Shown here: in pieces, positions 1 to 34,491 of the stretch | How the letters are laid out: each line of letters opens with the position of its first letter | Position numbering within the stretch: the stretch's first letter is position 1 | NCBI RefSeq assembly: GCF_002127655.1 | Contig: NZ_NEHB01000013.1 | Coordinates: 136,522 to 200,521 of the forward strand | Reading direction: 5' to 3' | Source of the DNA: Janthinobacterium sp. GW456P | GTDB lineage: Bacteria > Pseudomonadota > Gammaproteobacteria > Burkholderiales > Burkholderiaceae_D | Length of the DNA: 64,000 nt | Notes under the pieces: model-generated | What the model was told of the DNA's origin: nothing | Seen by the model: the letters and a program-made list of their open reading frames with translations, nothing else | The model's database searches: none | Program-made: the position numbers and the translations under genes

Positions 1-755
1 ACGACGCTGCCGGCCTGCAGATCGCTACCCGCCTGAAAGCACAGACCAGCGGCATGACGGTCGCCATGAGCAACACGCAAAACAGCACCTCGATGCTGCA
101 AACGGCTGAAGGCGCGTTCGGCGAAGTCACCAACATGCTGGTGCGCATGAAAGATCTGGCAACGCAAGCTGCCGATGCTTCGTCGAACACGGCCGACAAG
201 ACCGCCATGCAAGCCGAATACGACGCGCTGGGCCTGGAACTGTATAACGTGATGACCAATACCACGTTCGGCGGCCAGAATCTGCTGGGCGACGGCACGA
301 CCGGCAAGGGCACCCTGTCGGAAGCCAAGATGACATTCCAGATCGGCGCCGCCAAGTCGGAAACCATGGACTTCACCGTGCAAGCAGGCATGGTCACGCT
401 GGACGGCGCACTGAAAGGCCTGTCCGCCAACAACTTCAAGGCAGCCAGCGCCGGCGTCGGCACGGAACTGACCGGCACGGCAAACGCCACGATCGACCTG
501 CTGAAAAATGCCATCGACAATGTCGGTACGATCCGCTCCTCCCTGGGCGCCGCCGCCAACCGCCTCGACCACGTCAACAGCAACCTGTCGAACATCGCCA
601 CCAACACCAAGGCCGCGACCGGCCGCATCATGGACGTCGACTTCGCCACCGAAAGCTCGAACATGACCTCGTCGCAAATGCTGCTGCAAGCCGGCACCGC
701 GATGCTGAAACAAAGCAACAGCATGTCCTCGATGGTCATGTCCTTGCTGCAATAA
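1..755 (+). CDS. fliC: Flagellin, 5'-truncated by the window edge (first of two tandem copies)
   Basis: This is the structural subunit of the flagellar filament, exported through the flagellar type III apparatus. The open frame is already running at base 3 (D-A-A-G-L-Q-I-A-T-R), which is the conserved flagellin N-terminal helix, so about 45 residues including the start lie outside the window. The D1 helix, a short variable centre of about 100 residues and the conserved C-terminal helix ending M-S-L-L-Q are all present. It is closely similar to the complete flagellin that follows at 928. A strong terminator directly downstream suggests it is its own transcription unit. In a lateral-type system it corresponds to LafA. 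Confidence 0.95.
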   Translation, partial: DAAGLQIATRLKAQTSGMTVAMSNTQNSTSMLQTAEGAFGEVTNMLVRMKDLATQAADASSNTADKTAMQAEYDALGLELYNVMTNTTFGGQNLLGDGTTGKGTLSEAKMTFQIGAAKSETMDFTVQAGMVTLDGALKGLSANNFKAASAGVGTELTGTANATIDLLKNAIDNVGTIRSSLGAAANRLDHVNSNLSNIATNTKAATGRIMDVDFATESSNMTSSQMLLQAGTAMLKQSNSMSSMVMSLLQ

Positions 756-785
756 TTTTGGCCCGGCCGCTTGCGGCCAGCAAAC

Positions 786-813
786 AAAGCCAGACTGCGG
801 TCTGGCTTTTTTT
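786..813 (+). terminator. Rho-independent terminator after the first flagellin
   Basis: A 10-bp perfect stem (AAAGCCAGAC / GTCTGGCTTT) with a four-base loop is followed by a run of T. It lies about 30 bases after the flagellin stop codon and separates the two flagellin genes into independent units. Confidence 0.9.
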
Positions 814-927
814 ATGCGAAAAACGTATCTATTTGACTATATTGCCTTTCGATTTAACAATGCTGGCGGCGCAGTCGCCTATACAAGATAGACCCGACTC
901 ACCCTCACCGCCCACCGGAGCAGCCAC

Positions 928-1806
928 GTGCTGAGCATTCACACCAATATCGCCGCAATGTACGCCCAAAGCGCCGCCGCCAGTGCGCAAAGCCGGCTGG
1001 CAACATCGATGCAGCGTCTCGCCACCGGCTTTCGCATCAACTCGGCCATGGACGACGCCGCTGGCTTGCAGATCGCCACGCGCCTCAGTGCCCAGGTGAG
1101 CGGCATGACGGTGGCCATGCGCAACACGCAGAACAGCACCTCGATGCTGCAGACGGCCGAAGGCGCGTTTGGCGAAGTGACAAGCATGCTGGTACGCATG
1201 AAAGACCTGGCCACGCAGGCGGCCGACGCTTCGTCCAACCAGACCGACCGCGACGCCATGCAGTCCGAATACGATGCGCTGGGACTCGAGCTGTACAACG
1301 TCATGACCAACACCACCTACGGCGGCAACCTGCTGCTGGGCAACGGTGGCACCGGCAAGGGCACCTTGTCGGAGGCGATGACCTTCCAGATCGGCGCCAG
1401 CAGCAGCGAAACCATGCAGTTCGACGTGTCAGGCAAGATGGGCAGCCTGGATACCTTACTGAAAGCCATTTCCGCCAACTTTGCCGCCGCCGGCACGGCA
1501 GGCAGCGAAATTGGCACGAATGGCGGCGCCAACAGCATGATCGACCAGCTGGCGGCGGCGCTCGACCAAGTCGGCGGCGTGCGCTCGGCCCTGGGCGCGG
1601 CGGCCAACCGCCTCGACCACGTGCACAACAACCTGGCCAACATGGTCACCAATACCAAGGCCGCCATCGGCCGCATCATGGATGTCGATTACGCGGCGGA
1701 AAGCGCCAACATGGTGTCGGCGCAAATGCTGCTGCAGGCCAGCACGGCGATGCTCAAGCAAAGCCAGAGCATGCAGAAAATGATACTGTCGCTGTTGCAG
1801 CCATGA
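928..1806 (+). CDS. fliC: Flagellin, complete second copy
   Basis: This is a 292-residue flagellin filament subunit. The N-terminal D0/D1 region (about residues 1-150, starting M-L-S-I-H-T-N-I-A-A) and the C-terminal D1/D0 region (about 205-292, with SQMLLQASTAMLKQ) are well conserved, and the central domain is short, so the filament surface should be simple. The GTG start is supported by a GGAG at 916-919. It follows the first flagellin after a terminator and about 115 bases of intergenic DNA that presumably carries its own promoter; no convincing sigma-28 promoter could be assigned there. The high identity of the two copies in the outer helices indicates tandem duplication. It corresponds to LafA of lateral systems. 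Confidence 0.95.
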   Translation: MLSIHTNIAAMYAQSAAASAQSRLATSMQRLATGFRINSAMDDAAGLQIATRLSAQVSGMTVAMRNTQNSTSMLQTAEGAFGEVTSMLVRMKDLATQAADASSNQTDRDAMQSEYDALGLELYNVMTNTTYGGNLLLGNGGTGKGTLSEAMTFQIGASSSETMQFDVSGKMGSLDTLLKAISANFAAAGTAGSEIGTNGGANSMIDQLAAALDQVGGVRSALGAAANRLDHVHNNLANMVTNTKAAIGRIMDVDYAAESANMVSAQMLLQASTAMLKQSQSMQKMILSLLQP

Positions 1807-1862: not shown

Positions 1863-2963
1863 ATGGCGATAGACCGCATTTCATCGGGCAACCCGGTTCC
1901 CCTGATTACCCAGCGCTTCGACGTCAGCCCCGCCACGCCGATGGTACCGGGCGTGGTGCAGCCGCTGGTGCCGATCGGCCCCTACATGGCGCCCGCGCCC
2001 GACGCCGGCACCCTGCCCGCCCAGCTGCAGCAGCAGGGCCAGGACAGCCTGGCGTCCCTCATCAAGCCCAACGCCGACGGCACGGGTGGCGCCTTGCCGC
2101 GCGACAGCAGCGCCATGCAGGTCAATCAGCTGTTCTTCACGCGCCAGCTGGTCTGGCAGCCGCCCGACGCGGCGCAGCTGGCCGCCTCGTGGCGCGTAAT
2201 GATCAGGACCTATGGCGAACAATATGCGGCCCTGCAGGAACAAGCGCGCGGCCAGCACGTGCCGGGCAACCTCTTCATGGCCGAGCAGCAACCGGCGCTG
2301 CTGCGCGAAGGCGCCCGTCCGCCGCTGACGGTCGACAGCGAAGCGTGGCGCTTTGCCGTGTATGGCTGGGGCGGCCAACGCCTGCTGCTGCGCGTGCTGG
2401 CCAGCGACGAAGACGAAGAGACAACGCCGAGGCGGCGCGGCAAGGTGGCGCTGCGCGTCGAGCTGATCATCATCGGCATCGGCCGGGTCGTGATCCAGAT
2501 GGAGCCGTCCGGCGACGGCGTGCTGCTGGAACTGGCCGCCGACGAGGAAGCCGCGCTGCGCCATCTGCGCCTGGCCCTGCCCGAGATCGCCGACGCCGTG
2601 CGGCGCGCGGGCCTGCGCCTGGTGCGCTGCCGCCTGAACCGCCAGCTGCATGCACAGCGCATGCACGGCAATTACCCGATGCAGGCGGGCGCCGCTGCGC
2701 TGTCCCTGCCCCTGTTCCGCGCCATGGCCGAAGTGGCCCTGCTGCTGACGCAGCCGGAAGCGGAGGCGGCGGCCGATCCCGATGCACCCGCGGCTGCCGC
2801 GGCCGAAGCCGAAGAGGAGGCCATCTTTATCTCGAAGGAAGTGGCGGCGCCGCTCGGTTACGACTATGGCGACGAGGAAGACGCGGCCCAGGGCGGCACC
2901 GTGCTGCTGCTGGCCGACGGCCAGGAGCACGAGCTGCTGCCGCCCATCGACGAGCAGGATTGA
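1863..2963 (+). CDS. Flagellar-locus orphan with a FliK C-terminal-like segment
   Basis: This is a 366-residue protein of unestablished function placed between the flagellin and the flhA operon. Residues about 192-262 read like the C-terminal domain of FliK: a basic-hydrophobic strand pair (GRVVIQM), a short turn and strand, then a helix with the pattern A-L-R...A-L-P-E-I...A-G-L-R-L. In FliK this domain contacts FlhB and switches export specificity. The N-terminal half is Pro/Ala/Gln-rich and the last 70 residues are Ala- and acid-rich. The real fliK is at 17874, so this would be a second FliK-like protein. No membrane segment or signal peptide is visible. The FliK relationship is my inference from the sequence pattern; a plain hypothetical call is the fallback. 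Confidence 0.6.
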   Translation: MAIDRISSGNPVPLITQRFDVSPATPMVPGVVQPLVPIGPYMAPAPDAGTLPAQLQQQGQDSLASLIKPNADGTGGALPRDSSAMQVNQLFFTRQLVWQPPDAAQLAASWRVMIRTYGEQYAALQEQARGQHVPGNLFMAEQQPALLREGARPPLTVDSEAWRFAVYGWGGQRLLLRVLASDEDEETTPRRRGKVALRVELIIIGIGRVVIQMEPSGDGVLLELAADEEAALRHLRLALPEIADAVRRAGLRLVRCRLNRQLHAQRMHGNYPMQAGAAALSLPLFRAMAEVALLLTQPEAEAAADPDAPAAAAAEAEEEAIFISKEVAAPLGYDYGDEEDAAQGGTVLLLADGQEHELLPPIDEQD

Positions 2964-3017: not shown

Positions 3018-3031
3018 ATCGTTCCTGCATT

Positions 3032-5119
3032 TTATCCCACCGTGCCGATGATGCTCACTTCGCGGTTTTCCGGAATTTCGTTGTATGACAGCACGTGCAG
3101 GCCCGGCGCGAACAGGCGCGCGTAGCGGGCCAGCAGCGGACGGATCTGCGGCAGCACCAGCAGCAGCGGCGGCGTCGCCTGCTGCTTCATCTGCTCGCGT
3201 GCCACCGGCATGTTCACTTGCAGCTGCGACAGCAGATGCGGGTCGATCGGATAGTTATCCAAGGTCACCTTGCCCGCCTGGCGCGCCTGGTTCAAGGAAC
3301 CGAGCAGCATGTTTTCCAGTTCGCCACCCAGGTTGAATGCCTGCATTTCCATCTTCTGGCCGAACAGGCCGCTAACGATCTGGCGCCGCAACGCGCAGCG
3401 CACCTCGGCCGCCAGCAGGATCGGATCCTTGGTGGTTTCCGAACTGTCGAGCAAGGTGGTGGCGATGGGCACGATATCCTTCAGTGACACATTTTCCGCC
3501 AACAAGACGCGGAACACGCGCAGCATCTGCGTGTGCGTCAGCGCCTTGTCCAGCGCGCCGGCCAGCTTCGGCGACAGGGCCGTCAGGCGCTCCATCAGGT
3601 TCGACACGTCTTCGTGGCGGAACAGTTCCGGCAGGTATTCGCGCACCATTTTCGACAAGTGCGTGGCGATCACGCTGGGCGCCTCGATGACCTGGTAACC
3701 GAGGCCCAGCGCATGCGCCTTTTCACTCGGCTCGATCCACGTGACGGGCATGCCGTAGGCCGGTTCGATGCCGGGAATGCCGTCGAGCTGGCCGTACACG
3801 TTCGGCGACGGGATCGCCATCAGGCGGTCGGCCTGCACTTCCGCCTGCGCCACCACGGTGCCCGACAGCACGATCGCGTACTGCGACGGTTTCAGGGCCA
3901 GATCGTCGCGCACGCCGATATTCGGCAGCAGCAAACCCATCGCTTCGGACAGGCTCTGGCGCACGCCCTTGACGCGCTTGGTCAAAGGTTCGCCCTGGGT
4001 TTTATCCACCATGCCGACCAGCTTGTAGCCGAGCATCACCATCAAGGGCTGCACGGCGGGCAGTTGCTGCCATTCCAGTTCGGCAGGCTTGTCGTCGCGC
4101 AAGGCCGCCTCGATGGCTGCCATGCCGGCCGCGTCGGGCCCCTTCACGCGCTTGCTCAGGCGCCAGGCAACAAAGGCCAGCACGGCGGCAAAGGTCATGA
4201 ACATGAACCACGGCATGCCCGGAATCAGGGCCAGTGCCACCATCATGCCGGCCGCACTGAAGATCACCGTCGGCGACGTCAATACCTGGCCGGCCACTTG
4301 CTGCTCGAAATCGCCCGAATCGCTGATGCGGGTCACCAGGATGGCGGCGGCGGCTGACAGCAGCAGCGCCGGAATCTGCGCCACCAGGCCATCGCCGATG
4401 GTCAGCAGTGCGTACTGACGGAAGGCGTCGCCGAACGACAGGTCGTGCATCAGCGAGCCGATGGCCACGCCGCCGACCATGTTGATGATCAAAATCAGGA
4501 TACTGGCGACGGCGTCGCCGCGCACGAACTTCGACGCGCCGTCCATGGCGCCATAGAAATCGGCTTCGGCGGCCACGTCCTTGCGGCGGATCTGGGCTTT
4601 TTCCTGGTTGATCAGGCCGGCATTCAGGTCGGCGTCGATCGCCATCTGCTTGCCCGGCAAGGCATCGAGGGTAAAACGCGCGGACACTTCGGAAATACGC
4701 TCGGCGCCCTTGGTGACGACGGCGAAGTTGATGATCATCAAGATCACGAAGACCACGATACCGACGACGAAGTTGCCGCCGATGACCACGTTACCAAACG
4801 CCTCGATCACCTTACCGGCAGCATCGGCGCCTGTATGGCCGTGCAGCAGTACCACGCGCGTGGACGCCACATTGAGGGTCAGCCTGAGCATGGTGGTCGC
4901 CAGGATCACCGTCGGGAAGACGGAGAAATCGAGCGGCCGCTTGGCAGACACGCTGACGAGGATGACGATCAGTGCCAGCACGATATTGAAAGTGAACAAG
5001 ATATCGAGCAGCACGGGCGGCAGCGGCAGGATGATCATCGCCAGGATCACCAGCAGGAACAGCGGCGTGGCGAACTTGTGGCGGCGCATTTCGGCAACCA
5101 ACCGGTTCAGGAAATTCAT
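3032..5119 (-). CDS. flhA: Flagellar type III export gate protein FlhA
   Basis: FlhA (695 residues, the usual family length) forms the nonameric export gate in the inner membrane. About eight transmembrane helices fill the first 330 residues, followed by a large cytoplasmic domain that docks chaperone-substrate complexes and couples proton flow to export. The N-terminus (MNFLNRLVAEMRRHKFATPL) and the segment with R-P-L-D-F-S-V-F-P-T are typical. It is the last gene of the leftward operon and starts inside the flhB stop codon (ATGA overlap), which implies translational coupling. It equals LfhA of Flag-2 loci. Confidence 0.98.
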   Translation of the reverse strand: MNFLNRLVAEMRRHKFATPLFLLVILAMIILPLPPVLLDILFTFNIVLALIVILVSVSAKRPLDFSVFPTVILATTMLRLTLNVASTRVVLLHGHTGADAAGKVIEAFGNVVIGGNFVVGIVVFVILMIINFAVVTKGAERISEVSARFTLDALPGKQMAIDADLNAGLINQEKAQIRRKDVAAEADFYGAMDGASKFVRGDAVASILILIINMVGGVAIGSLMHDLSFGDAFRQYALLTIGDGLVAQIPALLLSAAAAILVTRISDSGDFEQQVAGQVLTSPTVIFSAAGMMVALALIPGMPWFMFMTFAAVLAFVAWRLSKRVKGPDAAGMAAIEAALRDDKPAELEWQQLPAVQPLMVMLGYKLVGMVDKTQGEPLTKRVKGVRQSLSEAMGLLLPNIGVRDDLALKPSQYAIVLSGTVVAQAEVQADRLMAIPSPNVYGQLDGIPGIEPAYGMPVTWIEPSEKAHALGLGYQVIEAPSVIATHLSKMVREYLPELFRHEDVSNLMERLTALSPKLAGALDKALTHTQMLRVFRVLLAENVSLKDIVPIATTLLDSSETTKDPILLAAEVRCALRRQIVSGLFGQKMEMQAFNLGGELENMLLGSLNQARQAGKVTLDNYPIDPHLLSQLQVNMPVAREQMKQQATPPLLLVLPQIRPLLARYARLFAPGLHVLSYNEIPENREVSIIGTVG

Positions 5120-6255
5120 GAAGGTACTACCTCGCTCAAATGAGATGGCACGACCACCTCGGTGGGAAATGGGGGCTGGGCGGCGCGCTGCCCAGTACGG
5201 AATGCTTTCAGCTGCAGGATGTAGTTGAGCACCTGCGACACGGCCTGGTACAGCTGCACGGGAATCTGCTGCTGCACCTGGCTGGTGTTGTAGATGGCGC
5301 GCGCCAGCGGCGGCAACTCCAGCGTTTCGATGTTGTGTTCCTTCGCTACCTGCCGGATATACAGCGCCATCTCGTCGACGCCCTTGGCAACGACAAACGG
5401 CGCCTCGGCGCGGTCCTGGTCATACTTGAGCGCGACGGCGTAATGCTCGGGGTTGACGATCACCACGTCGGCGTCGGGCACGGTCTTGCGCACGCTGCGC
5501 CGGCCGATCTGCTGCTGCAGCTGGCGGATGCGCTGGCGCACTTCGGGCCGCCCTTCGCTGCTTTTATGTTCTTCCTTGACGTCCTGCTTGCTCATGCGCT
5601 GGTTGCGGGCAAAGAAAAACGCCTGCGCCGGCACGTCGATGATGGCAAACAGGACGAAAACGGAAATGAGGGCCATCAGGCCGTCGAGCATCAGCGCCGA
5701 GCCGTCGAGCATGGCTTGCTGCAGGGGCCGGTGCTGCAGATCCACGTACTGTGTCAGGCTGGAGCGGCTCACATGCACGAGCACCATGCCCAGCACGGCG
5801 GCCTTGGCGATCGACAAGCCGAATTCAAAGCCATGCTTGGGCGACACCAGGCGGCCCAGGTTCTTGGCCGGACTCAGGCGCTCCATCTTCGGCATCCAGT
5901 TCTTCGTGCTGATGACCCAGCCGCCAGGGACCAATGAGCCGAGCACAACGAACAAGGGCACGCAGAACAGCGGCACGATCATCTTGATCAGCAAGCCCAC
6001 GGACGTGGTAAACGCCATCGACATGGCATTGTCCAGCGCACCCTTGCTGTCGAGCGGCATGAAGGCCATGGCGAACAGCTCGCGAAAGCTCACCAGATAG
6101 CCGGGCAGCAGGTAAATGAAGACCTTCATGCTGATCAGAATGCCCAGCGCCGTCGACAGGTCGCGCGAACGCACCACCTGCCCTTCCTGGCGCGATTTCT
6201 TCAGCTTCTGCGCTGACGCCTTTTCTGTCTTGTCGCCCGTGCTGCTATCCGCCAT
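5116..6255 (-). CDS. flhB: Flagellar export specificity-switch protein FlhB
   Basis: FlhB (379 residues) sits in the export gate and changes specificity from rod/hook to filament substrates after self-cleavage. Four hydrophobic segments in the first 215 residues are followed by a charged linker and the cytoplasmic domain. The autocleavage motif reads N-P-E-H at residues 268-271 instead of the canonical N-P-T-H; the Asn-Pro bond that is cut is kept. I chose the ATG at 6255 because an AAGG-type ribosome site precedes it and the next residues (MADSSTGDKTEKAS) match the family; an upstream extension in frame adds only 10 unlikely residues. A 137-bp repeat-containing gap separates it from fliR upstream. 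Confidence 0.97.
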   Translation of the reverse strand: MADSSTGDKTEKASAQKLKKSRQEGQVVRSRDLSTALGILISMKVFIYLLPGYLVSFRELFAMAFMPLDSKGALDNAMSMAFTTSVGLLIKMIVPLFCVPLFVVLGSLVPGGWVISTKNWMPKMERLSPAKNLGRLVSPKHGFEFGLSIAKAAVLGMVLVHVSRSSLTQYVDLQHRPLQQAMLDGSALMLDGLMALISVFVLFAIIDVPAQAFFFARNQRMSKQDVKEEHKSSEGRPEVRQRIRQLQQQIGRRSVRKTVPDADVVIVNPEHYAVALKYDQDRAEAPFVVAKGVDEMALYIRQVAKEHNIETLELPPLARAIYNTSQVQQQIPVQLYQAVSQVLNYILQLKAFRTGQRAAQPPFPTEVVVPSHLSEVVPS

Positions 6256-6289
6256 GGGCCGCACCTTTCCGCACGTGCCCCACAAGCGT

Positions 6290-6392: not shown

Positions 6393-7190
6393 CTATCCAT
6401 GGGCCACCCGCATCTGTTCGGCGATCATGTCGAGCACGCGGTTCGTCATGGCGATGTAGTGCTCCGGGATAAAGCGCACGATCTGTCCCAGCATCAGCAG
6501 GCCGAACATGGTGATCATGGAAAAGCCCAGCGAAAACAGGTTCAGCGACGGCGCCACGCGGTTCAGGAAGCCAAAGCCCAGCTGCACCACCATGGTGGAA
6601 AAAACGATGGGCAAGGCCAGCAGCATGGCGGCGGCGAAGATCCACGCCACGTTATACGCCACCGTCTGCAGCAGCAGCGGCCCGTAGCCCTGCCCCACGG
6701 GCCAGGCCTTGAAACTGGCGCCGATCACGCCCGTCAGCACAAGGTGGCCGTCGATGGCGAAAAACACGATCATGCACATGATGGTGAGCATCCCCGTGAT
6801 CACGTCCGACGAGGTGCCGTTGAGCGGATCGTTCATGACGGCCATGGAAAAGCCCACCTGGCTCGACACGAGGTAACCGAGCACCGACATGACGGACATG
6901 GCGAAGTGGAAAGCCAGGCCCAGGACGAAGCCGATGACGGCCTGCTCGAGGGTGGCGACAAGGGCGTGCAGGGAAAACGGATCGATCTTCAACAAGTCCT
7001 GCGACACGCCCGAGGCCTGCATGACGGGCAGCATCAGGATCGCCAGCACCAGCGACAGCAGCACCCGCACGGGGACGGGCACCATGGCGTCGCCGATCAC
7101 GGGCGAAGCGCTGAGCATGGCCAGGATGCGGCAGAACGGCCACCACACGGCCAGCAGAAACGGCAGCACCTGATTGAAAATCTGATCCAT
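6393..7190 (-). CDS. fliR: Flagellar export gate protein FliR
   Basis: FliR (265 residues) is a polytopic inner-membrane protein of the FliPQR export core. About six hydrophobic segments are visible, and the motif with G-Y-L-V-S-S-Q-V-G-F-S-M near the middle is family-typical. The start at 7190 (MDQIFNQVLPF) is chosen because it matches FliR N-termini and leaves an 11-base gap after fliQ; a longer reading would run into fliQ with unlikely residues. It is part of the tightly packed leftward export operon. Confidence 0.97.
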   Translation of the reverse strand: MDQIFNQVLPFLLAVWWPFCRILAMLSASPVIGDAMVPVPVRVLLSLVLAILMLPVMQASGVSQDLLKIDPFSLHALVATLEQAVIGFVLGLAFHFAMSVMSVLGYLVSSQVGFSMAVMNDPLNGTSSDVITGMLTIMCMIVFFAIDGHLVLTGVIGASFKAWPVGQGYGPLLLQTVAYNVAWIFAAAMLLALPIVFSTMVVQLGFGFLNRVAPSLNLFSLGFSMITMFGLLMLGQIVRFIPEHYIAMTNRVLDMIAEQMRVAHG

Positions 7191-7201
7191 GGCGCGCGGC
7201 G

Positions 7202-7474
7202 CTATCCGACCAGGGTGGCCGCGCGCTGAAAAATGGACACGCAATAATCCATCAGGTAACCGGCCATCCAGCGTCCGGCCAGGATCAGGGCCAGCAGGGT
7301 GACCAGCAGGCGCGGCAGGAAACTCATGGTCTGTTCATTGATCGAGGTGGCCGCCTGCACCAGCGCGACCAGCAAGCCCATGAGCAAACCTGGCACGACC
7401 AGGATCACCACCAGCAGCATGACGACATGCAGCGCTTCGATGATCAGGTCGACGGCGACTTCAGGGGTAAACAT
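7202..7474 (-). CDS. fliQ: Flagellar export gate protein FliQ
   Basis: FliQ (90 residues, family-typical) has two transmembrane helices (about 15-40 and 52-75) and the conserved polar turn Q-A-A-T-S-I-N-E-Q-T between them. Four copies surround the FliP-FliR helix in the export core. It follows fliP after three bases and precedes fliR by 11 bases. Confidence 0.98.
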   Translation of the reverse strand: MFTPEVAVDLIIEALHVVMLLVVILVVPGLLMGLLVALVQAATSINEQTMSFLPRLLVTLLALILAGRWMAGYLMDYCVSIFQRAATLVG

Positions 7475-15628: not shown

Positions 15629-15717
15629 GCTTGGTGTAAGTTTCTTTCAGGAAAACTTCACAAAACGGGAATAGGGGTCGCCTTGTACCGGTATATCCCT
15701 TTATTCAGGAGTCAGGC

Positions 15718-24997: not shown

Positions 24998-25005
24998 GGA
25001 TCAGC

Positions 25006-25422: not shown

Positions 25423-25425
25423 TCC

Positions 25426-26079: not shown

Positions 26080-26137
26080 TCCGCTCGCCCCTTCGTTTCC
26101 TGAACACTAATCTCGTCCTTCACTAAAGGAAGTCAAC

Positions 26138-27316
26138 ATGAGTTTCGACATCGCGCTGTCCGGTATCCAGTCCATCAACCAACAGTTGAACAGCACCAGT
26201 AACAATATCGCCAATGCCGGCACCTACGGCTTCAAGAGCAGCCGCGCCAACTTTTCGGCCATGTATGCCGGTTCGCGCGCCACGGGTACGGAAATCGGCT
26301 CGATCACGCAAAGCATGTCGCTCACTGGCGGCGTGCTGAACACGGGCCGCGCGCTCGACGCGGCCATCGACGGCCGCGGCTTTTTCGTCGCGCGCGATGC
26401 GCAAAACACCATGAGCTACAGCCGGGTCGGCATCTTTTCGGCCAGCAGTGATGGCAAGCTGATCGACTCGAACGGCCGCCTGGTGCAGGGCTATGCCGCC
26501 GTCAAAGGCAGCACGACCCTGGGCACCATGGGCGACATGAACATTCCGACGGGCCAGATTCCCGCCGTGGCATCGACCAAGCTGGCCTATGCCGCCAACA
26601 TGTCGTCCGAATGGACCATCAAGGCTGTGCCTTTCAACAAGACCAACGAACTGAGCTACAACAGCGCCAAGTCCTCGATCGTCTACGATTCGCTGGGCGC
26701 CAAGCACTCGCTGGGCCAGTACTTCGTCAAGACGGCGACGGGCGTGGACGTGCACTACACCTTTGACAACGCCGATGTGACGCCGGTGACGAGCATGACC
26801 TTCGACACGAACGGCAAGCTGGTGACCGGAACCACCGCCACGCCGGTGTTCCCGACGCCGCCTGGCGCCGCAGCGCTGTCGATCGCCATCGACTACACGG
26901 GCACGACCCAGTTCGCCGGCGAAGCGACCACCTCGACCGACCGCGCCGACGGCTATGCCTCGGGCACGTACACGGGCGTGGAATTGGCCGACGACGGCTC
27001 CGTCGTGGCGAAATACACGAACGGCCAGAAGCAAAGCATCGGCGTGATCGCCCTGGCCACCTTCCCCGACGAAGGCGGCCTGACGGCCGTCAACGATACC
27101 AGCTGGGTCGCCTCGACCACCTCCGGCACCGCCATCTATGACCGTCCGGGCGTCGGCATGGCCGGCAAACTGGTGACGAGCTCGCTGGAACAGTCGAACG
27201 TCGACATCACCTCCGAACTGGTGGGCCTGATGACGTCGCAGCGCAACTACCAGGCGAACTCGAAGGTCATCTCGACCGAGAACGCCATGCTGCAATCGCT
27301 GATGCAAGCGCTGTAA
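26138..27316 (+). CDS. flgE: Flagellar hook protein FlgE
   Basis: FlgE (392 residues) is the hook subunit. The N-terminal S-G-I-Q-S-I-N-Q-Q-L-N helix with S-N-N-I-A-N, the middle hook domain and the C-terminal motif with E-L-V-G-L-M-T-S-Q-R-N-Y-Q-A-N are all clear. An AAAGGAAG ribosome site precedes the ATG. The length is close to enterobacterial FlgE. Confidence 0.97.
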   Translation: MSFDIALSGIQSINQQLNSTSNNIANAGTYGFKSSRANFSAMYAGSRATGTEIGSITQSMSLTGGVLNTGRALDAAIDGRGFFVARDAQNTMSYSRVGIFSASSDGKLIDSNGRLVQGYAAVKGSTTLGTMGDMNIPTGQIPAVASTKLAYAANMSSEWTIKAVPFNKTNELSYNSAKSSIVYDSLGAKHSLGQYFVKTATGVDVHYTFDNADVTPVTSMTFDTNGKLVTGTTATPVFPTPPGAAALSIAIDYTGTTQFAGEATTSTDRADGYASGTYTGVELADDGSVVAKYTNGQKQSIGVIALATFPDEGGLTAVNDTSWVASTTSGTAIYDRPGVGMAGKLVTSSLEQSNVDITSELVGLMTSQRNYQANSKVISTENAMLQSLMQAL

Positions 27317-27342
27317 TCGACGATACGCAAAGGTAAAAAGCA

Positions 27343-28071
27343 ATGGATGCGCTGATTTATACCGCCATGAGCGGGGCCGACCGTGCCCTGCGGGCACAGC
27401 AGGTACACGCCAACAACCTGGCCAATATCGAGACGGGCGGCTTTCGCGCGAACATGGAAGTGTCCACCGCCCAGCCGCTGCAAAACGGCTATGGCTACGA
27501 CGACCGCCACATGACGCAGACGCAGTCAAGCGCCGTCGGCACGCGCACGGGTACGATCAAGGAAACGGGACGCGAACTCGACGTGGCCGTCACGGGCCCC
27601 GGCTTTCTCGCTGTGCAATGGCAAAACGGTGAAGCCTACACGCGCGCCGGCGCCATGGACCTCGATGAAACGGGCGCGCTGACCATCAACGGCCGGCCCG
27701 TGCTGGGCGAAGGCGGCCCGATCACGATTCCCGAGCACACCAGTCTGTCGATCGGCGCCGATGGCACGATTTCCATTCAGGTGCCAGGAACGGCGCAAAT
27801 GCAGACCGTCGACAAGCTCAAGCTGGTCAATGCGGAATCGGGCGAGTTGACGAAGAACGAGGCGGGTCTGATCGTGGCACGCAGCGGCGAAGACTTGCAG
27901 GCCGATCCGGCGGTGCGTCTGCGCGACCGCCACCTGGAAGGCAGCAACGTCTCGGCCGTCGAGGAAATGGTCGCCACCATGAGTCTGAACCGCAGTTTCG
28001 AAATGCAAATGAAAGTTTTCAAGGCCAGCGATTCCATGACGGAATCAGGCAACCGCCTGCTGGGCGCGTAA
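27343..28071 (+). CDS. flgF: Flagellar proximal rod protein FlgF
   Basis: FlgF (242 residues) is a rod subunit with the N-terminal M-D-A-L-I-Y-T-A-M-S-G-A and N-N-L-A-N-I motifs, the central rod domain (G-R-E-L-D-V-A-V-T-G-P-G-F) and C-terminal helix with S-L-N-R-S-F-E-M-Q-M. AAAGG precedes the start at good spacing. It sits between flgE and flgG as in nearly all rod operons. Confidence 0.97.
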   Translation: MDALIYTAMSGADRALRAQQVHANNLANIETGGFRANMEVSTAQPLQNGYGYDDRHMTQTQSSAVGTRTGTIKETGRELDVAVTGPGFLAVQWQNGEAYTRAGAMDLDETGALTINGRPVLGEGGPITIPEHTSLSIGADGTISIQVPGTAQMQTVDKLKLVNAESGELTKNEAGLIVARSGEDLQADPAVRLRDRHLEGSNVSAVEEMVATMSLNRSFEMQMKVFKASDSMTESGNRLLGA

Positions 28072-28103
28072 GCCCAACGCCAACCAATTACCAGGAGTAA
28101 ATC

Positions 28104-28892
28104 ATGAATCCAGCAATGTGGATCAGCAAGACCGGCGTGCAGGCACAAGATGCCAAACTGCAAGCCATCGCAAATAACCTGGCCAACGTCAATACCGTCG
28201 GCTTCAAGCGCGACCGCGTCGTCTTCGAAGACCTGTTTTACCAGGTCGAGCAGCAGCCGGGCACGCAGCGTGCCGACAATACCCTGTCGCCATCGGGCGT
28301 GCAGCTGGGTAACGGTACGCACATGGTCGGCACGCAAAAGGTGTTTACCACCGGCAGCCTGCAAACGACGAGCCGCGAATTCGACGTCGCCATCACCGGC
28401 AACGGCTTTTTGCAGGTGCTGCGCCCGAACGGCGAAGCGGCCTACACGCGCGCCGGCCAGCTCGGCATCAATGAAAACGGCGTGATGGTCAACGCCCAGG
28501 GCTTGCCGCTGGTGCCGCAGATCACCGTGCCGAACAATGCGACGGCGATCACCATCGGCGAAAACGGCATGGTCACGGCCACCGTGCCGGGCAATGTCAA
28601 CGGCACCCAGCTGGGCCAGCTGAACCTGACCAGCTTCGTCAACCCGACGGGCTTGCTGGCACTTGGCGAAAACCTGTTCCAGGAAACGGCATCGAGCGGC
28701 ACGCCGACCGAAGGCCGTCCCGGCGAAGGCGCACTGGGCAAACTGAAACAGTTCGCGCTGGAAGGCTCGAACGTGCAGGTGGTCGAAGAGATGGTCGACA
28801 TGATCGCTGCCCAGCGCACCTATGAAATGAACACCAAGGTGCTGTCGGCCGCCGACAATATGCTGCAATACCTGGCGCAAGCGGCACGCTGA
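28104..28892 (+). CDS. flgG: Flagellar distal rod protein FlgG
   Basis: FlgG (262 residues) forms the distal rod. The N-terminal segment with W-I-S-K-T-G-V-Q-A-Q, N-N-L-A-N-V-N-T-V-G-F-K, the S-R-E-F-D-V-A-I-T-G-N-G-F motif and C-terminal A-A-Q-R-T-Y-E-M-N-T-K are standard. An AGGAG ribosome site precedes the ATG. It overlaps flgH by one base. Confidence 0.98.
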   Translation: MNPAMWISKTGVQAQDAKLQAIANNLANVNTVGFKRDRVVFEDLFYQVEQQPGTQRADNTLSPSGVQLGNGTHMVGTQKVFTTGSLQTTSREFDVAITGNGFLQVLRPNGEAAYTRAGQLGINENGVMVNAQGLPLVPQITVPNNATAITIGENGMVTATVPGNVNGTQLGQLNLTSFVNPTGLLALGENLFQETASSGTPTEGRPGEGALGKLKQFALEGSNVQVVEEMVDMIAAQRTYEMNTKVLSAADNMLQYLAQAAR

Positions 28893-29566
28893 TGACAGCC
28901 GCCATGAAAGCCACGGCAGCCATGCTGCTGGTGTTGATGGCCGGTTGCGCCAGCCGGCCGGCCGCGCCGGTGGTGCCCAGCTTTTCCGATACGCCGCTGC
29001 CCGTGGCGCCGCGCAGCGCTGCGCGCGGCGGCGTGGGCGGCGGCGTGTTCAATCACGACGCCGGCCTGGACCTGATCTCGGACAGCCGCGCCTTCCGCGT
29101 CGGCGATGTCGTCACGGTGGCCCTGCAGGAAACCACGCAAGCGAGCAAGAAAGCCGGCACCTCGTTCAACAAGGGTTCGTCCGTCGGCGTGAATGCCGCC
29201 AACATCCTCGGCAAGACCTTCCCGAAGACGGGCATCGACCTGTCGGCCGACCGCAACTTCGCCGGCGACTCGACCAGCACGCAGCAAAATGCGCTGTCCG
29301 GCGCCATCACCGTGATCGTGCAGGAAGTGCTGCCGAACGGCTTGCTGCGCGTGCAGGGCGAGAAAACGCTGACCCTGAACCAGGGCGAGGAATTCGTGCG
29401 CCTGCGCGGCTACCTGCGCGCGGCCGACATCGATTCGAACAACCAGGTCTCGTCCCTGCGCATCGCCAATGCACAGATCGCCTATTCCGGCCAGGGCACC
29501 CTGGCCGAAGCCAATACACCAGGCTGGCTGACGCGCTTCTTCGTCGGCCCATGGATGCCGTTTTAA
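28892..29566 (+). CDS. flgH: Flagellar L-ring lipoprotein FlgH
   Basis: FlgH (224 residues) makes the outer-membrane L ring. A lipoprotein signal peptide ends at M-A-G-C with Cys19 as the lipidated residue. The body shows R-V-G-D-V-V-T-V-A-L-Q-E-T-T-Q-A-S-K and L-R-V-Q-G-E-K-T-L-T-L-N, both typical. It starts in the flgG stop region and is followed by flgI after nine bases. L and P rings show the structure belongs to a two-membrane cell. Confidence 0.97.
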   Translation: MTAAMKATAAMLLVLMAGCASRPAAPVVPSFSDTPLPVAPRSAARGGVGGGVFNHDAGLDLISDSRAFRVGDVVTVALQETTQASKKAGTSFNKGSSVGVNAANILGKTFPKTGIDLSADRNFAGDSTSTQQNALSGAITVIVQEVLPNGLLRVQGEKTLTLNQGEEFVRLRGYLRAADIDSNNQVSSLRIANAQIAYSGQGTLAEANTPGWLTRFFVGPWMPF

Positions 29567-29575
29567 GGTGAGCTC

Positions 29576-30688
29576 ATGAAATTTCGTTCCGCCCTGCCCC
29601 TGGCAGCCATGCTGGCCGCGCTCTCCGGCTTTGCCCTGCCCGCCAGCGCCGCGCAAGTGCTGCGCAACCTGGTCAGTATCGAGGGCGTGCGCGACAACCC
29701 GCTGGTCGGCTACGGCCTCGTCGTGGGCCTGAACGGCAGCGGCGACACCACCCAGGTGAAGTTTTCCAGCCAGTCCGTGGTCAACATGCTCAAGCAATTC
29801 GGCGTGAAGATGCCTGACGGCGCCGAAGCAAAAAGCAAGAACGTCGCCACCGTCATGGTCAGCGCCGTGTTTCCTCCAGGATACCGCCGTGGCCAGGCCA
29901 TCGATGTCACCGTCTCGTCCCTGGGCGATGCGAAGAGCTTGCGCGGCGGCACCTTGTTGCTGACGCAATTGCGCGCGGCCGACAATGAAACGTATGCGCT
30001 GGCACAAGGCAACGTCGTCGTCGGCGGCTTGAACGCCACCGGCAAGAGCGGCTCGTCCGTCACCGTCAACACGCCAACCTCGGGCCGCATTCCCAACGGC
30101 GCCAACATCGAACGCGAAATCCTCAGCGATTTCTCGACCAAGCCGACCGTCACCCTGAACTTGCGCCACCCGCATTTCGAAACGGCCATCAATATCGTCG
30201 AAGCCGTCAACCGCCGCTTTGGCGCCGTCGCCACCACGCGCGACGCCACCAGCGTGGAAGTGCTGGCGCCGGAAAACCCGACCCAGCGCGTGGCCTTCAT
30301 GGCCAAGCTCGAAGCGCTGTCCGTCGATGTCGGCGTCGATACGCCGAAAGTGGTCTTCAATTCGCGCACCGGCACCGTGGTCATCGCCGAAGGCTTGCGC
30401 GTCAAGGCGGCCGCCGTCACGCACGGCTCGCTCAAGGTTGTCATTTCCGAAAGTTCGGCCGTCAGCCAGCCGGCGCCGTTCGGCCGCGGCCAGACCACCG
30501 TCACGCCGCAGTCGAAAGTGTCCGTCGACCAGGGTAATGGCAATATGTTCAAATGGCCGGCCGGTGCCAAGTTGCAGTCGATTATCGACGTGGTCAACAG
30601 CCTGGGCGCCTCGCCCGATGACATCATGGCAATTCTGCAAGCCCTGGATCAAGCCGGGGCCATCGAAGGTGAACTGGTGGTCATATGA
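29576..30688 (+). CDS. flgI: Flagellar P-ring protein FlgI
   Basis: FlgI (370 residues) forms the P ring in the peptidoglycan layer. It has a Sec signal peptide (cleavage near A-L-P-A-S-A-A, about residue 25), followed by the conserved [16 protein letters not shown] and later N-P-T-Q-R-V-A-F motifs. The stop overlaps the flgJ start by four bases. Confidence 0.98.
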
Positions 30689-31077
30689 TGAATATCAACG
30701 ACAGCAGCGGCGCCCTGCCCTCGGCGCTCGACGACAAGACGCCCGCCGCGGCCACGCCGGCCGATCCCCGCTATGCGGCCAAGGCCACCGAGGCGGCCGT
30801 CAAGTTCGAAGCCTTCTTCATCTCGCACATGCTGCGCCAGATGCGTTCGGGCACGCGCGAGATGGCGGGCGAAGACAGCGTCTTCAAGGACCCGATCAAC
30901 AGCGACATGCTGGAAATGGCTGATAACCTGGTGGCCGACAAGATGGCCGGCCAGCGCGCCTTCGGCATCGCCGACGCCATCCTGCGCCAGCTGCTGCCGC
31001 CTGCCGGCGCCCCGGTGACAGCCCGTGGCGCTGTCAAAACCGACAATATTGCGGCGCCGCTTAATAAATCCGTCTGA
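30685..31077 (+). CDS. flgJ: FlgJ rod-cap domain protein without the muramidase domain
   Basis: This 130-residue protein contains only the N-terminal rod-scaffold domain of FlgJ (about 28-105: [16 protein letters not shown] and the later helix with D-M-L-E-M-A-D). The C-terminal peptidoglycan hydrolase domain found in enterobacterial FlgJ is missing and is encoded as a separate gene at 22974. The frame ends cleanly with no sign of a frameshift, so this looks like a genuine short form. It overlaps flgI by four bases. Confidence 0.93.
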
Positions 31078-31158
31078 AGCGTCGCCTGTACAAGGTAACA
31101 ACGATTCAATGCCTGCCCACCCGCATGCGCCACACTCTTCACGAAAGAAACTTGCCCA

Positions 31159-32520
31159 ATGAGCATCATCAGCAATGCATTGTCAGGCAGCATCGCCGCC
31201 CAGGCCGCACTCAATGCGGCCAGCCAGAACATCGCCAACCTGCAAACGGCGGGCTATACGCGCCAGGGTGTGCTGCTGGCATCGCTTGGCGCCACCGCCG
31301 GCGTGCGTTCGGCCGGCAATGGCGTGGAAGTGTCCGCCTTGCTGCGTTTTGCCGATGCGTATAAGAGCCAGCAAATGTGGCGTGCCGCGTCCGACCAGGG
31401 CGCCCGCTCGCAGACCCAGCCTTACCTGACCCAGCTCGAGCGCGTGATGGGCGACGATGCGTCGAGCATCAGCAATGGCATCGACGGTTTCTTCAAGGCC
31501 CTGAACGCGGCCGCCGTCGACCCAACGTCGACGCCGCTGCGCCAGCAGATCGTCACTTCCGCCGACGCCATGGCGCAGCGCTTCAACAGCATCAGCACCG
31601 TCATGGGCAACCAGTTGCTGTCGGTCCAGCAACAACGGGCAGCGATTGTGCCGCAAGCCAATACCACCCTGGCCAATATCGCCGCGTTGAACCAGCGTAT
31701 CAGCACCTCCACGGCGTCGGGCACGAACGTGTCGTCGCTGATGGATGCGCGCGACCAGCTGATCGATGGCCTGGCCTCGCAAATGGGCATCGAGGTGCTC
31801 GACCAGCCGGACGGCTCGCGCAATGTCTCGCTGAAGTCGGGCCAGCCTCTGGTCATCGGCAGCCTGGCCGGCACCCTGAGCAGCACCATGACGAACACGG
31901 GCGACCAGACGCTGAGCCTCGATTTCGCCAAGTCCTCGTACACGCTCGATCTGGTCGCCATCGGCGGCCAGATGGGCGGTCTGGGCGAATTCGAAAAAAA
32001 TACCCTGAAACCGCTGCAGCAGTCGCTGCAAGACATGGCCACCCAGTTGACCAGCAAGGTCAACGCGCAACTGGCGCTGGGAACAACCATGGCCGGCACG
32101 GCCGGAGGTCCCCTGCTGGCCTATGCGAATGGCAAGCTGAGCATTACCCCTGGCTTCAACGCCAAGGACCTGGCCCTGTCACTGACGGGCCAGGCCGGCG
32201 ACAGCGGCAACTTGCAGAAACTGATCGACATCAAGAATCAACCGATCAGCGTCAGCTGGGTGGGTTCCGTCCTGATGAGCGATGCGGACACGCAGCTGGT
32301 CGGCAAGCTGGCGATCTACAGCCAGCAGAATCAAGCCTTGCTGAAGACGGCCAGCACGGTGCGCGCGCAAGCGATCGACGACTGGAAATCCACAAGCGGC
32401 GTGAACAAGGACGAAGAAGCGATGAACCTGGTCGAATTCCAGAATATGTACCAGGCAAACATGAAAGTCATTTCCGTGGCGAATACCTTGTTTGACGCCA
32501 CTTTGCAAATGATGGGTTAA
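31159..32520 (+). CDS. flgK: Hook-filament junction protein FlgK (HAP1)
   Basis: FlgK (453 residues) joins hook and filament. The N-terminal helix (A-L-S-G-S-I-A-A-Q-A-A-L-N-A-A-S-Q-N-I) and the C-terminal region with E-E-A-M-N-L-V-E-F-Q-N-M-Y-Q-A-N are characteristic. It is shorter than enterobacterial FlgK (about 545), the difference being in the middle domain. It follows flgJ after 81 bases and precedes flgL by 10. Confidence 0.96.
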   Translation: MSIISNALSGSIAAQAALNAASQNIANLQTAGYTRQGVLLASLGATAGVRSAGNGVEVSALLRFADAYKSQQMWRAASDQGARSQTQPYLTQLERVMGDDASSISNGIDGFFKALNAAAVDPTSTPLRQQIVTSADAMAQRFNSISTVMGNQLLSVQQQRAAIVPQANTTLANIAALNQRISTSTASGTNVSSLMDARDQLIDGLASQMGIEVLDQPDGSRNVSLKSGQPLVIGSLAGTLSSTMTNTGDQTLSLDFAKSSYTLDLVAIGGQMGGLGEFEKNTLKPLQQSLQDMATQLTSKVNAQLALGTTMAGTAGGPLLAYANGKLSITPGFNAKDLALSLTGQAGDSGNLQKLIDIKNQPISVSWVGSVLMSDADTQLVGKLAIYSQQNQALLKTASTVRAQAIDDWKSTSGVNKDEEAMNLVEFQNMYQANMKVISVANTLFDATLQMMG

Positions 32521-32530
32521 GGAGAAGATC

Positions 32531-33442
32531 ATGCGTGTTGCCAGTAGCCAGTACCAATCGCTGATTAATATTTCTCTTCAGCAAAATCAAGAACGCATCA
32601 ATTACCTGACGCAGCAGATGGCTTCGGGCTTGCGCATCCAGCTGCCGTCGGATGACCCGATCGGCAACGTGCGCATTTCGCGCCTGACGCGCGAGCAAGC
32701 CATGGTCACGCAGTACCAGGACAATATCGCCACAGTCAAAGTGCGCCTGCTGAAAAACGAAAACTACCTGTCGAGCATGGTTACCGACATGGGCCAGGCG
32801 CGCGACCTGCTCGTATGGGCGGCCGACGGCAGCAACGCCCCCGCCGACCTGAATGCCATGACGCAATCGCTGGTCGCCTTGCGCGACAGCGTGCTGTACA
32901 CGGCCAACCTGAAGGACCAGGAAGGCCGCTACATGTTTTCCGGCACCGCCACCGACCAGCCGGCGATCAAGTACGACGCGACAGCGGCTGCCGGTTCGCG
33001 CTACAGCTACATCGGCAATACCGACACGCAGACCGTGGTAGTGGGCAATGGCGTGACGCAGGCGGCCAACGTCGACGTGAAGAATCTGGAAGTATGGCTC
33101 AACAAGATCGACCAGGTCATCACCACCCTCGGCACGCCGGGCGTCAGCCCGAATGACCCGGCCGTGCGGGCCGTGGTGGGCGCAGGCCTGAATGGCACGG
33201 ACGACGGCATGGATCTGCTCTCGGGCAAGATCGCCATCTTCGGCGGCGCGCAGAACATCCTGTCCACCTTGTCCGGCAACCTGTCCAATGTCTCGCTGTC
33301 GAACGATTCGGCCCTGCTGGACCTGAAAAAGACCGACATGGGTGCGGCGGCCATCGAACTGACCGGCTACCAGACAGCCCTGCAGGCAACCTACAAGGCA
33401 TACGCCAAGGTTGGCACCATTTCCCTGTTTGATCTTCTCTGA
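32531..33442 (+). CDS. flgL: Hook-filament junction protein FlgL (HAP3)
   Basis: FlgL (303 residues) is the second junction protein, a flagellin homologue. The N-terminal helix with M-R-V-A-S-S-Q-Y-Q and L-T-Q-Q-M-A-S-G-L-R-I, followed by P-S-D-D-P, and the flagellin-like C-terminal helix (E-L-T-G-Y-Q-T-A-L-Q-A-T) are typical. An AGGAGA ribosome site precedes the ATG. Confidence 0.96.
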   Translation: MRVASSQYQSLINISLQQNQERINYLTQQMASGLRIQLPSDDPIGNVRISRLTREQAMVTQYQDNIATVKVRLLKNENYLSSMVTDMGQARDLLVWAADGSNAPADLNAMTQSLVALRDSVLYTANLKDQEGRYMFSGTATDQPAIKYDATAAAGSRYSYIGNTDTQTVVVGNGVTQAANVDVKNLEVWLNKIDQVITTLGTPGVSPNDPAVRAVVGAGLNGTDDGMDLLSGKIAIFGGAQNILSTLSGNLSNVSLSNDSALLDLKKTDMGAAAIELTGYQTALQATYKAYAKVGTISLFDLL

Positions 33443-33447
33443 CCATC

Positions 33448-34491
33448 ATGCAAATCGTTCAGACCTCCTCCTCTTCCGGCGTCAATGCCAAAGGCGCCGG
33501 CACAGCCCGCGTCGTTGATGACGCGTCCGCCGCCATCAACGGCAGCGCCAGCGCGCGCAGCGATGCGCCGGCAGCGAAGAGATCGACGGCGAGCCTGCAA
33601 CGCGGCCTGAGCAACTGGGATCACCAGCTGCAGGGGGAGATTTCCAACGCGCAACAAACGCTCGACTACCTGGAACGCAGCAGCAGCCAGTTGCAAGCGC
33701 TGAAAAGCGAGCTGGCGGCCAAGCTGGCCGCACGCCAGGGCCGCGAAGGGCAAGTCGAAGCAAGGGTACGCCAGTTCAGCAATACCTGGCGCCAGCGCGC
33801 CAGCGCCTCGGGCGGCACGCTCGACGCACAGCTCAGCTATACCAGCCCGCGCGCGGCACAGCAAAACTTCAGCATCCGCGGCCTGACCATGGCCAGCCTG
33901 CAGGAAGGCCCGCAGGAAGTGCTGGCGTTTTCCGTCGGCGGCGCGAACCAGGCTTTGCGCTCGGTCAATATCGAACCTGGCCTGAGCGCGAACGAAATCG
34001 TCTCGCGCTTCGACCGCGCCTTGATGCCATCGGGTATCGGCGTCAAACTGGGCGAGAATGGCGAACTGGTGTTCAGCACGTCGGAAGCGGCCTGGGCCAA
34101 CGTGCGCGACAGCCTGTCCGTGCGCGGCAGCGGCATCCGCTATCCGACCGGCCAGATGAGCCGCGTGCGCACGGATGCGGAACCGGCCGCCATCGCACCG
34201 GAAGAATGGCATACCGGCGACGTGGAAGCCCTGCGCGCCACCTTGCAGCAAGTGGTGCAAGCGCTGGCGCAGTTGCAGGCGGCGCGCAGCGCCGTCGGCC
34301 TGGCCCTGGCGCAAGCCACTGGACGAGTTGCCCGAGCGCAACCAGTGCAAGTGCACGTCAGCATGGATACCTTGGCGGAAAACTTCACGCAAAAGGCCAG
34401 CGAGCCCGGCTATGAATCGCTGCTGGCGATCAGCTCGGCATTGGTCGGCATCAGCCGCGAGCGAGTCGTCGCCCTGCTGGGCCTCGAATAA
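33448..34491 (+). CDS. Orphan hook-associated-like flagellar protein (possible LafW counterpart)
   Basis: This 347-residue protein starts five bases after flgL and is therefore almost certainly in the flg operon. It has no signal peptide or membrane segment. Residues about 45-110 are a long charged helical region with coiled-coil character (L-Q-A-L-K-S-E-L-A-A-K). Residues about 165-215 read like a flagellin_IN or FliD-type insert (N-I-E-P-G-L-S-A-N-E-I-V then G-V-K-L-G-E-N-G-E-L-V-F-S-T). The C-terminus is helical and rich in Ala and Gln. In Flag-2 loci a putative hook-associated protein gene, lafW, also follows lfgL. The LafW equivalence is inferred from position and this pattern. Confidence 0.6.
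   Translation: MQIVQTSSSSGVNAKGAGTARVVDDASAAINGSASARSDAPAAKRSTASLQRGLSNWDHQLQGEISNAQQTLDYLERSSSQLQALKSELAAKLAARQGREGQVEARVRQFSNTWRQRASASGGTLDAQLSYTSPRAAQQNFSIRGLTMASLQEGPQEVLAFSVGGANQALRSVNIEPGLSANEIVSRFDRALMPSGIGVKLGENGELVFSTSEAAWANVRDSLSVRGSGIRYPTGQMSRVRTDAEPAAIAPEEWHTGDVEALRATLQQVVQALAQLQAARSAVGLALAQATGRVARAQPVQVHVSMDTLAENFTQKASEPGYESLLAISSALVGISRERVVALLGLE

Follow-up and report, generated by a model that had tools for sequence, protein, structure and literature searches.

A lateral-type flagellar locus in Janthinobacterium sp. GW456P with a candidate promoter code of its own

We analysed a stretch of 64,000 nucleotides from Janthinobacterium sp. GW456P (assembly GCF_002127655.1, contig NZ_NEHB01000013.1, positions 136,522 to 200,521), hereafter the window, whose positions 1–34491 form an intact flagellar locus of the lateral (Flag-2/Laf) type. 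The contig, C5, is 336 kb long in a genome of 6.27 Mb that is split over 78 contigs. Genes were called and then searched against NCBIfam and Pfam profiles, the remaining genome and relatives were compared, and trees were built. Predicted genes for the basal body, hook, export gate, filament, cap, stator, sigma-28 and anti-sigma factor are all present (Table 1), and the open frame is intact for every gene from lafA2 to position 34491. The G+C content is 63.0% in the flagellar block and 65.3% in the rest of the window. The original prediction, made from the sequence alone, had placed the whole system in a single 34-kb block. The profile searches bear out a flagellar set within positions 1–34491 but not the left boundary, since the locus runs approximately 2 kb past the window's left edge into further lateral flagellin genes.

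The inventory of genes given in that prediction also stands, and we add two genes that it had left unnamed. The first, at 1863–2963, is FliK-like by weak evidence; its fold, of low confidence, best matches the substrate-switch (SS) domain of PscP and the C-terminal domain of FliK, and its product is common to Rugamonas (52%) and Massilia (37%). The second, at 33448–34491, is LafW-like and matches a gene adjoining flgL in a Ralstonia lateral locus (34%) and sequences beyond motB in two Vibrio lateral loci (27–30%). Lateral-type NCBIfam models were the best for several proteins, namely PRK07196 for FliI and PRK13386 for FliH, both over cut-off, and PRK12427 for FliA, LafU for MotB and LafA for the flagellins, all below cut-off. 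We take PRK07196, PRK13386 and PRK12427 to be models built on lateral proteins. FlgC to FlgI, FlgK and FlgL were identified through the primary flg block of the genome and by 98–100% identity in a complete genome of the genus. FlgJ is split into a rod-cap part (30685–31077) and a glucosaminidase (22956–23726) that lie approximately 7 kb apart; in the primary set on contig C41, both parts match inside one frame of 307 amino acids.

The genes fliO, flhF and che are missing from the block, as originally proposed. Using tblastn, we found no match in positions 1–34600 to the genome's own FlhF and FliO or to E. coli FliO, and none in positions 1–34491 to E. coli CheA, CheB, CheR, CheW, CheY, CheZ or Tar. 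CheW-domain matches number 18 in the genome and none in the window. A gene for a dCache-HAMP chemoreceptor lies at 53135–55150 of the window, approximately 19 kb outside the flagellar block. Absence of FliO from a lateral set and its presence in the polar set has been described as a frequent pattern (PMC12248157).

A separate primary set is present elsewhere in the genome. Contig C41 carries flhB, flhA, flhF, fliA, a gene for a stator protein of the MotA family and a flg block, and contig C32 carries fliC, fliD, fliS and the genes from fliF to fliR, including the gene for FliO. On C5 itself, at 277–290 kb and thus approximately 77–90 kb past the end of the window, are flhDC, motAB, cheY, cheA, cheW, a receptor gene, cheR and cheB. 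FlhD was found in a single copy in the genome. This set, with its FliO, FlhF, FlhDC, MotAB and che genes, supports the earlier suggestion that the locus encodes a second flagellum, and the locus carries a sigma-28 factor, an anti-sigma factor and a stator of its own.

The core genes have homologues in the primary set, as would be expected of a duplicated or relocated primary flagellum of betaproteobacterial type. However, FlhA is only 45% and FliI 53–55% identical to the genome's own primary proteins, whereas FlhA is 65–86% identical to its counterparts in lateral-type loci of nine betaproteobacterial genera (Rugamonas, Massilia, Rhodoferax, Pseudorhodoferax, Chromobacterium, Methylibium, Roseateles, Ralstonia and Pandoraea). 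In an FlhA tree of 38 rows (34 of 80 loci and four other rows; model LG+C20), 15 lateral rows, including that of the window, fall on one side of a branch supported at 100/100, with Endozoicomonas next outside. FlhA of the window groups with lateral-type FlhA of Vibrio, Hafnia, Enterobacter and Stutzerimonas and not with the primary FlhA of its own genome, which is placed with that of E. coli K-12, with Janthinobacterium sp. SUN073 adjoining on a short branch. A FliI tree of 13 rows, three of them partial and only two of them primary, likewise recovers the lateral group at 100/100. Lateral labels were assigned to the rows before the tree from gene order and identity, and betaproteobacterial primary systems are represented by this genome and one other Janthinobacterium. 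Neither protein groups with primary systems, and the trees place the ancestry of both FlhA and FliI in the lateral lineage, as had been predicted. Together with the absence of FliO and with LafA and LafU as best models, they leave a copied primary flagellum extremely improbable; that explanation fails at the sampling used.

The locus is also widespread in the genus. Of 36 other Janthinobacterium genomes, 34 have the lateral FliI, at 86–99% identity; the two without it are 82% and 98% complete. Among 24 genomes that represent other families of the order, no FliI exceeds 59% identity, which is the level of primary FliI, and in an even sample of the class lateral FliI was found in one of 368 other genomes (E <= 1e-165; at most four candidates per genome scored). 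These counts indicate that the locus is nearly fixed in Janthinobacterium and patchy elsewhere. The 41 window frames that were compared with a complete genome of the genus (G031), including that of the flanking glycosyltransferase, all have counterparts there in matching order, 38 of them at 96–100% identity; the exceptions are two flagellins (76–79%) and the cap gene fliD (71%). All 40 window genes tested are present in it near full length. Lateral genes in Janthinobacterium are already in print, in a description of strain SLB01 as carrying genes for polar and lateral flagella (PMC8929069), and lafA homologs have been reported in Duganella, Janthinobacterium and Chromobacterium (PMC5773237).

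The left end of the locus requires more care, because the window starts inside a flagellin array. lafA1 and a further flagellin gene lie at C5:134467–137276 (L008:14467–17276), where the tandem lafA copies appear broken. The assembly has N bases at or near the breaks, one of them at base 16521 of L008, a single base ahead of the first base of the window, and an 82-base repeat at the window's edge flanks one of the breaks. Broken flagellin genes could point to a decaying relic, silent or broken, that leaves motility to the primary set alone; transposons, pseudogenes and deletions have been described in additional flagellar loci of Enterobacterales (PMC7526173). Yet full-length lafA genes, two or three per genome, stand at the equivalent place in four other genomes of the genus. 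Because of these genes and the N bases, we read the broken frames as joints in a draft assembly, and such a joint most likely explains why lafA1 starts oddly. The intact frames from lafA2 onward, the retention of FliI across the genus and the near full-length genes of the complete genome also argue against decay, which we regard as very unlikely. Between genomes of the genus (L116, L118, L119, L120) the best flagellin matches have 76 to 95% identity. In the single genome compared for it, fliD reaches 71%, against 96–100% for most of the remaining genes. Filament and cap thus appear to change fast together.

We are therefore highly confident that these genes specify a second, complete flagellum, of the lateral (Flag-2/Laf) lineage. 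It is predicted to be a lasting trait of the genus and would work alongside the primary flagellum, which has its own genes elsewhere. This finding is correct and ordinary in kind; it is raised by three features: LafK is missing from its usual place, FliM has lost the CheY-binding segment, and there is a candidate promoter code separate from that of the primary set.

A gene for the sigma-54 activator LafK, which is normally the master regulator, between fliM and fliE is a mark of lateral systems, albeit not a universal one. In the window no gene was called in the 515 bases between fliM and fliE (9491–10005). Lateral loci of Hafnia, Enterobacter, two Vibrio and one Stutzerimonas have a frame of 340–471 amino acids between fliE and fliM that is a putative lafK by its place. 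In Massilia, Rugamonas, Chromobacterium, Roseateles, Methylibium and Pandoraea there is no coding-like frame of more than 120 amino acids between these genes. Other genes lie between them in Pseudorhodoferax; in Ralstonia a flagellin gene adjoins fliM, with fliE outside the stretch compared. Absence of LafK is not unique to the window, since the lateral cluster of Plesiomonas shigelloides is likewise described as missing it (PMC11242183). In Aeromonas a lafK mutant is reported to lose swarming and the activities of the fliM, flgB and lafA promoters (PMC5013049), and a system without LafK therefore needs another activator. The early lateral genes would then be switched on by a factor other than a LafK borne by the locus.

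We identified a likely promoter motif, TTAA-N16-G[TC]CG[TC]CT, in all 17 lafA upstream regions compared, always with a spacing of 16 nucleotides where 15–17 were allowed. These regions come from four genomes of the genus, Massilia (two genes), Rugamonas, Chromobacterium, Methylibium and Ralstonia; one Massilia flagellin with a run of N bases upstream and one Enterobacter flagellin clipped by the end of its locus were left out, and two Vibrio upstream regions were counted apart. Both of the latter carry TTAA-N16-TCCGC[AC]T. The motif occurred in 2 of 8500 shuffled and in none of 17 reversed upstream regions, and the canonical sigma-28 site is found in none of the 17. On both strands of the 64-kb window the strict motif has two sites, upstream of lafA2 and flgK, and allowing TTCA adds a third upstream of fliD. 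In addition, two lafA upstream regions to the left of the window fit the motif. It was not found upstream of fliE, fliM, flgB, flgA, flgM, motA, fliA, flhB or 1863–2963. In the primary set, TAAAGTTT-N11-GCCGATAA is present upstream of a putative primary flgM adjoining flgA, and GCCGATAA upstream of fliD; neither was seen upstream of the primary fliC. The FliAL regulon measured in P. shigelloides comprises fliC_L, flgMN, flgKL and the genes from fliDS to lafTU (PMC11242183), and all three operons flagged by the motif here (lafA, flgK and fliD) are within it. The FliA proteins themselves have DWR in four lateral and DWL or DWV in three primary representatives, and RVCQ or RICQ near the C-terminus in the former where the primary proteins have RVSQ. 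These residue differences may underlie the different promoter.

The N-terminal segment of FliM with the consensus LSQxE[IV]DALL binds CheY. This segment is present in eight of eight primary FliM proteins (six from nine loci searched, that of E. coli and the genome's own) and in none of 14 lateral FliM proteins, including that of the window; the Rhodoferax locus (L029) holds no FliM and was left out. The profile alignment begins only at primary residue 72, and PF02154 detects the primary FliM of this genome and not the FliM of the window. A motor with such a FliM is probably deaf to chemotaxis by the FliM route.

These observations suggest how the second flagellum might be run. Once the hook is completed, FlgM would be exported and the lateral FliA freed. 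The lateral FliA would then read the TTAA-N16 motif before lafA, fliD and flgK, such that the filament genes would answer to the lateral and not to the primary sigma-28. The assembled motor would turn without chemotactic switching through FliM and would add thrust on a surface or in a viscous medium, with steering left to the primary flagellum. Placement at the side of the cell and use in swarming are suggested by analogy with the family. It is also conceivable that an organelle of this lineage serves mainly as an adhesive or signalling filament, or as a few extra polar filaments, and not as a swarming flagellum. In Burkholderia dolosa, which has a related lafA, loss of that gene is reported to have raised swimming and the number of polar flagella (PMC5773237). 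However, the locus keeps its stator, switch and full set of motor genes, and MotA passes the cut-off of the MotA1 model, and we consider a non-swarming role unlikely.

For the more specific proposal, our confidence is evenly balanced. It holds that the lateral FliA reads TTAA-N16-G[TC]CG[TC]CT (TTAA-N16-TCCGC[AC]T in the two Vibrio loci) and the primary FliA of the same cell TAAAGTTT-N11-GCCGATAA, and that, with neither a LafK in the locus nor a CheY segment in FliM, the betaproteobacterial lateral machine is insulated at the levels of gene switch and motor and rotates without chemotactic control. Several points weigh against this account of the second flagellum. Because the pattern was first spotted by eye in the same lafA upstream regions, its presence in all 17 is partly by construction, and only flgK and fliD are independent tests. 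Of these, the fliD site needs a relaxation by one base, which also admits a site at 50327, outside the locus. As regards the activator of the early genes, consensus sites for sigma-28 and sigma-54 near gene starts were no more numerous than with reversed-motif controls. Elsewhere in the genome there are 13 NtrC-type matches to a Vibrio LafK (E <= 1e-40); the best is 54% identical over residues 125–364 of 442 (240 residues). CheY can also act through FliN, and loss of the FliM segment is consequently no proof of deafness. The motif is absent before flgM, although flgMN belongs to the FliAL regulon of P. shigelloides. Finally, the B. dolosa lafA mutant is reported to have spread farther than the wild type at four agar concentrations (PMC5773237).

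How one cell runs two flagella with paralogous parts and keeps those parts unmixed is a standing question. Two sigma-28 promoter motifs in one genome and a lateral FliM without a CheY site allow it to be tested directly in two ways, in a genus that is tractable and forms pigment. Lateral loci of Vibrio and Enterobacterales show the same signs, which suggests that insulation may be common to the lateral lineage and not a quirk of one genus.

A third flagellar-type locus, more unusual than the lateral locus, lies outside the window at C25:39495–61371 (L006, L007, L114) and comprises 28 flagellar-type genes. They encode the rod, rings, hook, hook scaffold, MS ring, export gate, ATPase and proteins of the FliM and FliN types, together with a FliO-like protein, a sigma factor and two TPR proteins, several of these being named by place and reading. 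Searches by tblastn with flagellin, FlgK, FlgL, FliD, FliS, MotA and MotB gave no match on the 93-kb contig outside its one masked stretch. Most or all of the set is present on a 292-kb contig of another genome of the genus, in three genomes of other families and on a plasmid of Undibacterium; genes matched number 28 of 28 in G025, 27 in G364, 25 in G328 and 23 in G284, with the same absences on the stretches compared. FliF of this type occurs in two of 40 genomes of the genus, this one included, and in three of 368 others in the class sample (E <= 1e-70; at most four candidates per genome scored). Proteins of this type also occur in Duganella, Pseudoduganella and Massilia, and the cousin on the Undibacterium plasmid is annotated. 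The third locus probably encodes a system for secretion or a surface appendage rather than an organelle of motility, and it may be a secretion system without filament or stator. A loose precedent is Lysobacter enzymogenes, which is reported to keep flagellar genes without flagella (PMC9927559).

Just past the lateral locus are genes for enzymes of cyclic di-GMP metabolism, a PAS-GGDEF-EAL protein (35693–37882) and an EAL protein (41085–41966). These neighbouring enzymes could act as a switch of a surface flagellum.

Table 1. Predicted features of the lateral-type flagellar locus (window coordinates)
Feature	Position	Strand	Basis and remarks
lafA1, lateral flagellin	1..755	+	NF038071 E=9e-77, below cut-off; clipped by window edge and assembly joint
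Predicted lateral late promoter TTAA-N16-GTCGCCT, upstream of lafA2	854..880	+	motif scan
lafA2, lateral flagellin	928..1806	+	NF038071 E=5e-89, below cut-off; PF00669/PF00700
Second FliK-like (T3S4-domain) protein, tentative	1863..2963	+	PF02120 weak, E=0.0075; low-confidence fold
flhA (lateral)	3032..5119	-	TIGR01398 E=2e-231; tree
flhB (lateral)	5116..6285	-	TIGR00328 E=3e-98
fliR	6393..7244	-	TIGR01400 E=1e-45
fliQ	7202..7474	-	TIGR01402 E=6e-24
fliP	7478..8248	-	TIGR01103 over cut-off
fliN	8245..8628	-	TIGR02480 E=9e-24
fliM, divergent, without N-terminal CheY-binding segment	8612..9490	-	PF01052 yes, PF02154 no; motif and profile alignment
Gap at place of lafK-sized frame in gamma loci; no gene called	9491..10005		gene calls
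fliE	10006..10380	+	TIGR00205 over cut-off
fliF	10429..12171	+	TIGR00206 over cut-off
fliG	12113..13189	+	TIGR00207 E=1e-57
fliH (start estimated)	13186..13875	+	NF009925/PRK13386 over cut-off
fliI (lateral)	13872..15182	+	NF005535/PRK07196 over cut-off; tree
fliJ	15191..15628	+	TIGR02473 E=1e-12
Predicted lateral late promoter TTCA-N16-GTCGCCT, upstream of fliD	15657..15683	+	relaxed motif
fliD (LafB)	15718..17127	+	PRK08032 E=1e-35
fliS (LafC)	17178..17567	+	TIGR00208 over cut-off
fliT-like (weak)	17560..17877	+	PF05400 E=0.025; 32% match in Vibrio lateral locus
fliK (LafE), start maybe further in	17823..19031	+	PF02120 E=2e-14
fliL (LafF)	19031..19507	+	PF03748 E=2e-9
fliA, lateral sigma-28 (LafS)	19529..20284	+	PRK12427 E=9e-81, below cut-off; TIGR02479 over cut-off
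motA (LafT)	20341..21255	+	TIGR03818 over cut-off
motB (LafU), start maybe further in	21182..22243	+	PRK06778 LafU E=2e-59, below cut-off
flgM, anti-sigma (start estimated)	22260..22550	+	PF04316, TIGR03824 over cut-off
flgN	22547..22987	+	PF05130 E=3e-12
Separate FlgJ-type glucosaminidase	22956..23726	+	TIGR02541 E=8e-53; PF01832
flgA	23733..24494	-	TIGR03170 over cut-off
flgB, flgC, flgD, flgE, flgF, flgG, flgH, flgI	24629..30688	+	flgB: PRK12685, TIGR01396; others: primary flg block matches
flgJ, rod-cap part only	30685..31077	+	PF10135 E=7e-5, just below cut-off
Predicted lateral late promoter TTAA-N16-GTCGCCT, upstream of flgK	31061..31087	+	motif scan
flgK, flgL	31159..33442	+	primary flgK/flgL matches; Ralstonia lateral 40-43%
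LafW-like hook-associated protein	33448..34491	+	name by place; no Pfam family over cut-off

The lateral flagella of Vibrio, Aeromonas and Enterobacterales share with this locus the gene blocks, the FlhA and FliI lineage, a sigma-28 factor, FlgM and stator of their own, a LafW-like protein and the lack of FliO and che genes. The order reported for Flag-2 of Enterobacterales is LfhAB-LfiRQPNM-LafK-LfiEFGHIJ-LfgN to L-LafW to U (PMC7526173). Here the profile-named genes show the same blocks in another order, as the original prediction had noted, and no lafK is in place between fliM and fliE. Further differences are that the flagellin genes lie beside flhA and not fliD, that there is a tentative second FliK-like protein, that FlgJ is encoded by two genes and that the filament block stands ahead of the flg block.

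The P. shigelloides cluster is similar in being described without LafK and with FliAL in control of fliC_L, flgMN, flgKL and fliDS to lafTU (PMC11242183). However, P. shigelloides is a gammaproteobacterium, and the same report suggests that its lateral genes may respond to FlaK. B. dolosa has putative lateral flagella, with a betaproteobacterial lafA system described as lacking FliO, FlhF, FlhG, FlhC and FlhD of its own (PMC5773237). Its lateral genes are spread over separate clusters, reportedly with neither FliL nor FliT, whereas in Janthinobacterium sp. GW456P they form one block with FliL and a weak FliT candidate. For Janthinobacterium sp. SLB01 a polar and lateral gene set has been named (PMC8929069); the present analysis also covers the locus, its predicted regulation and its motor.

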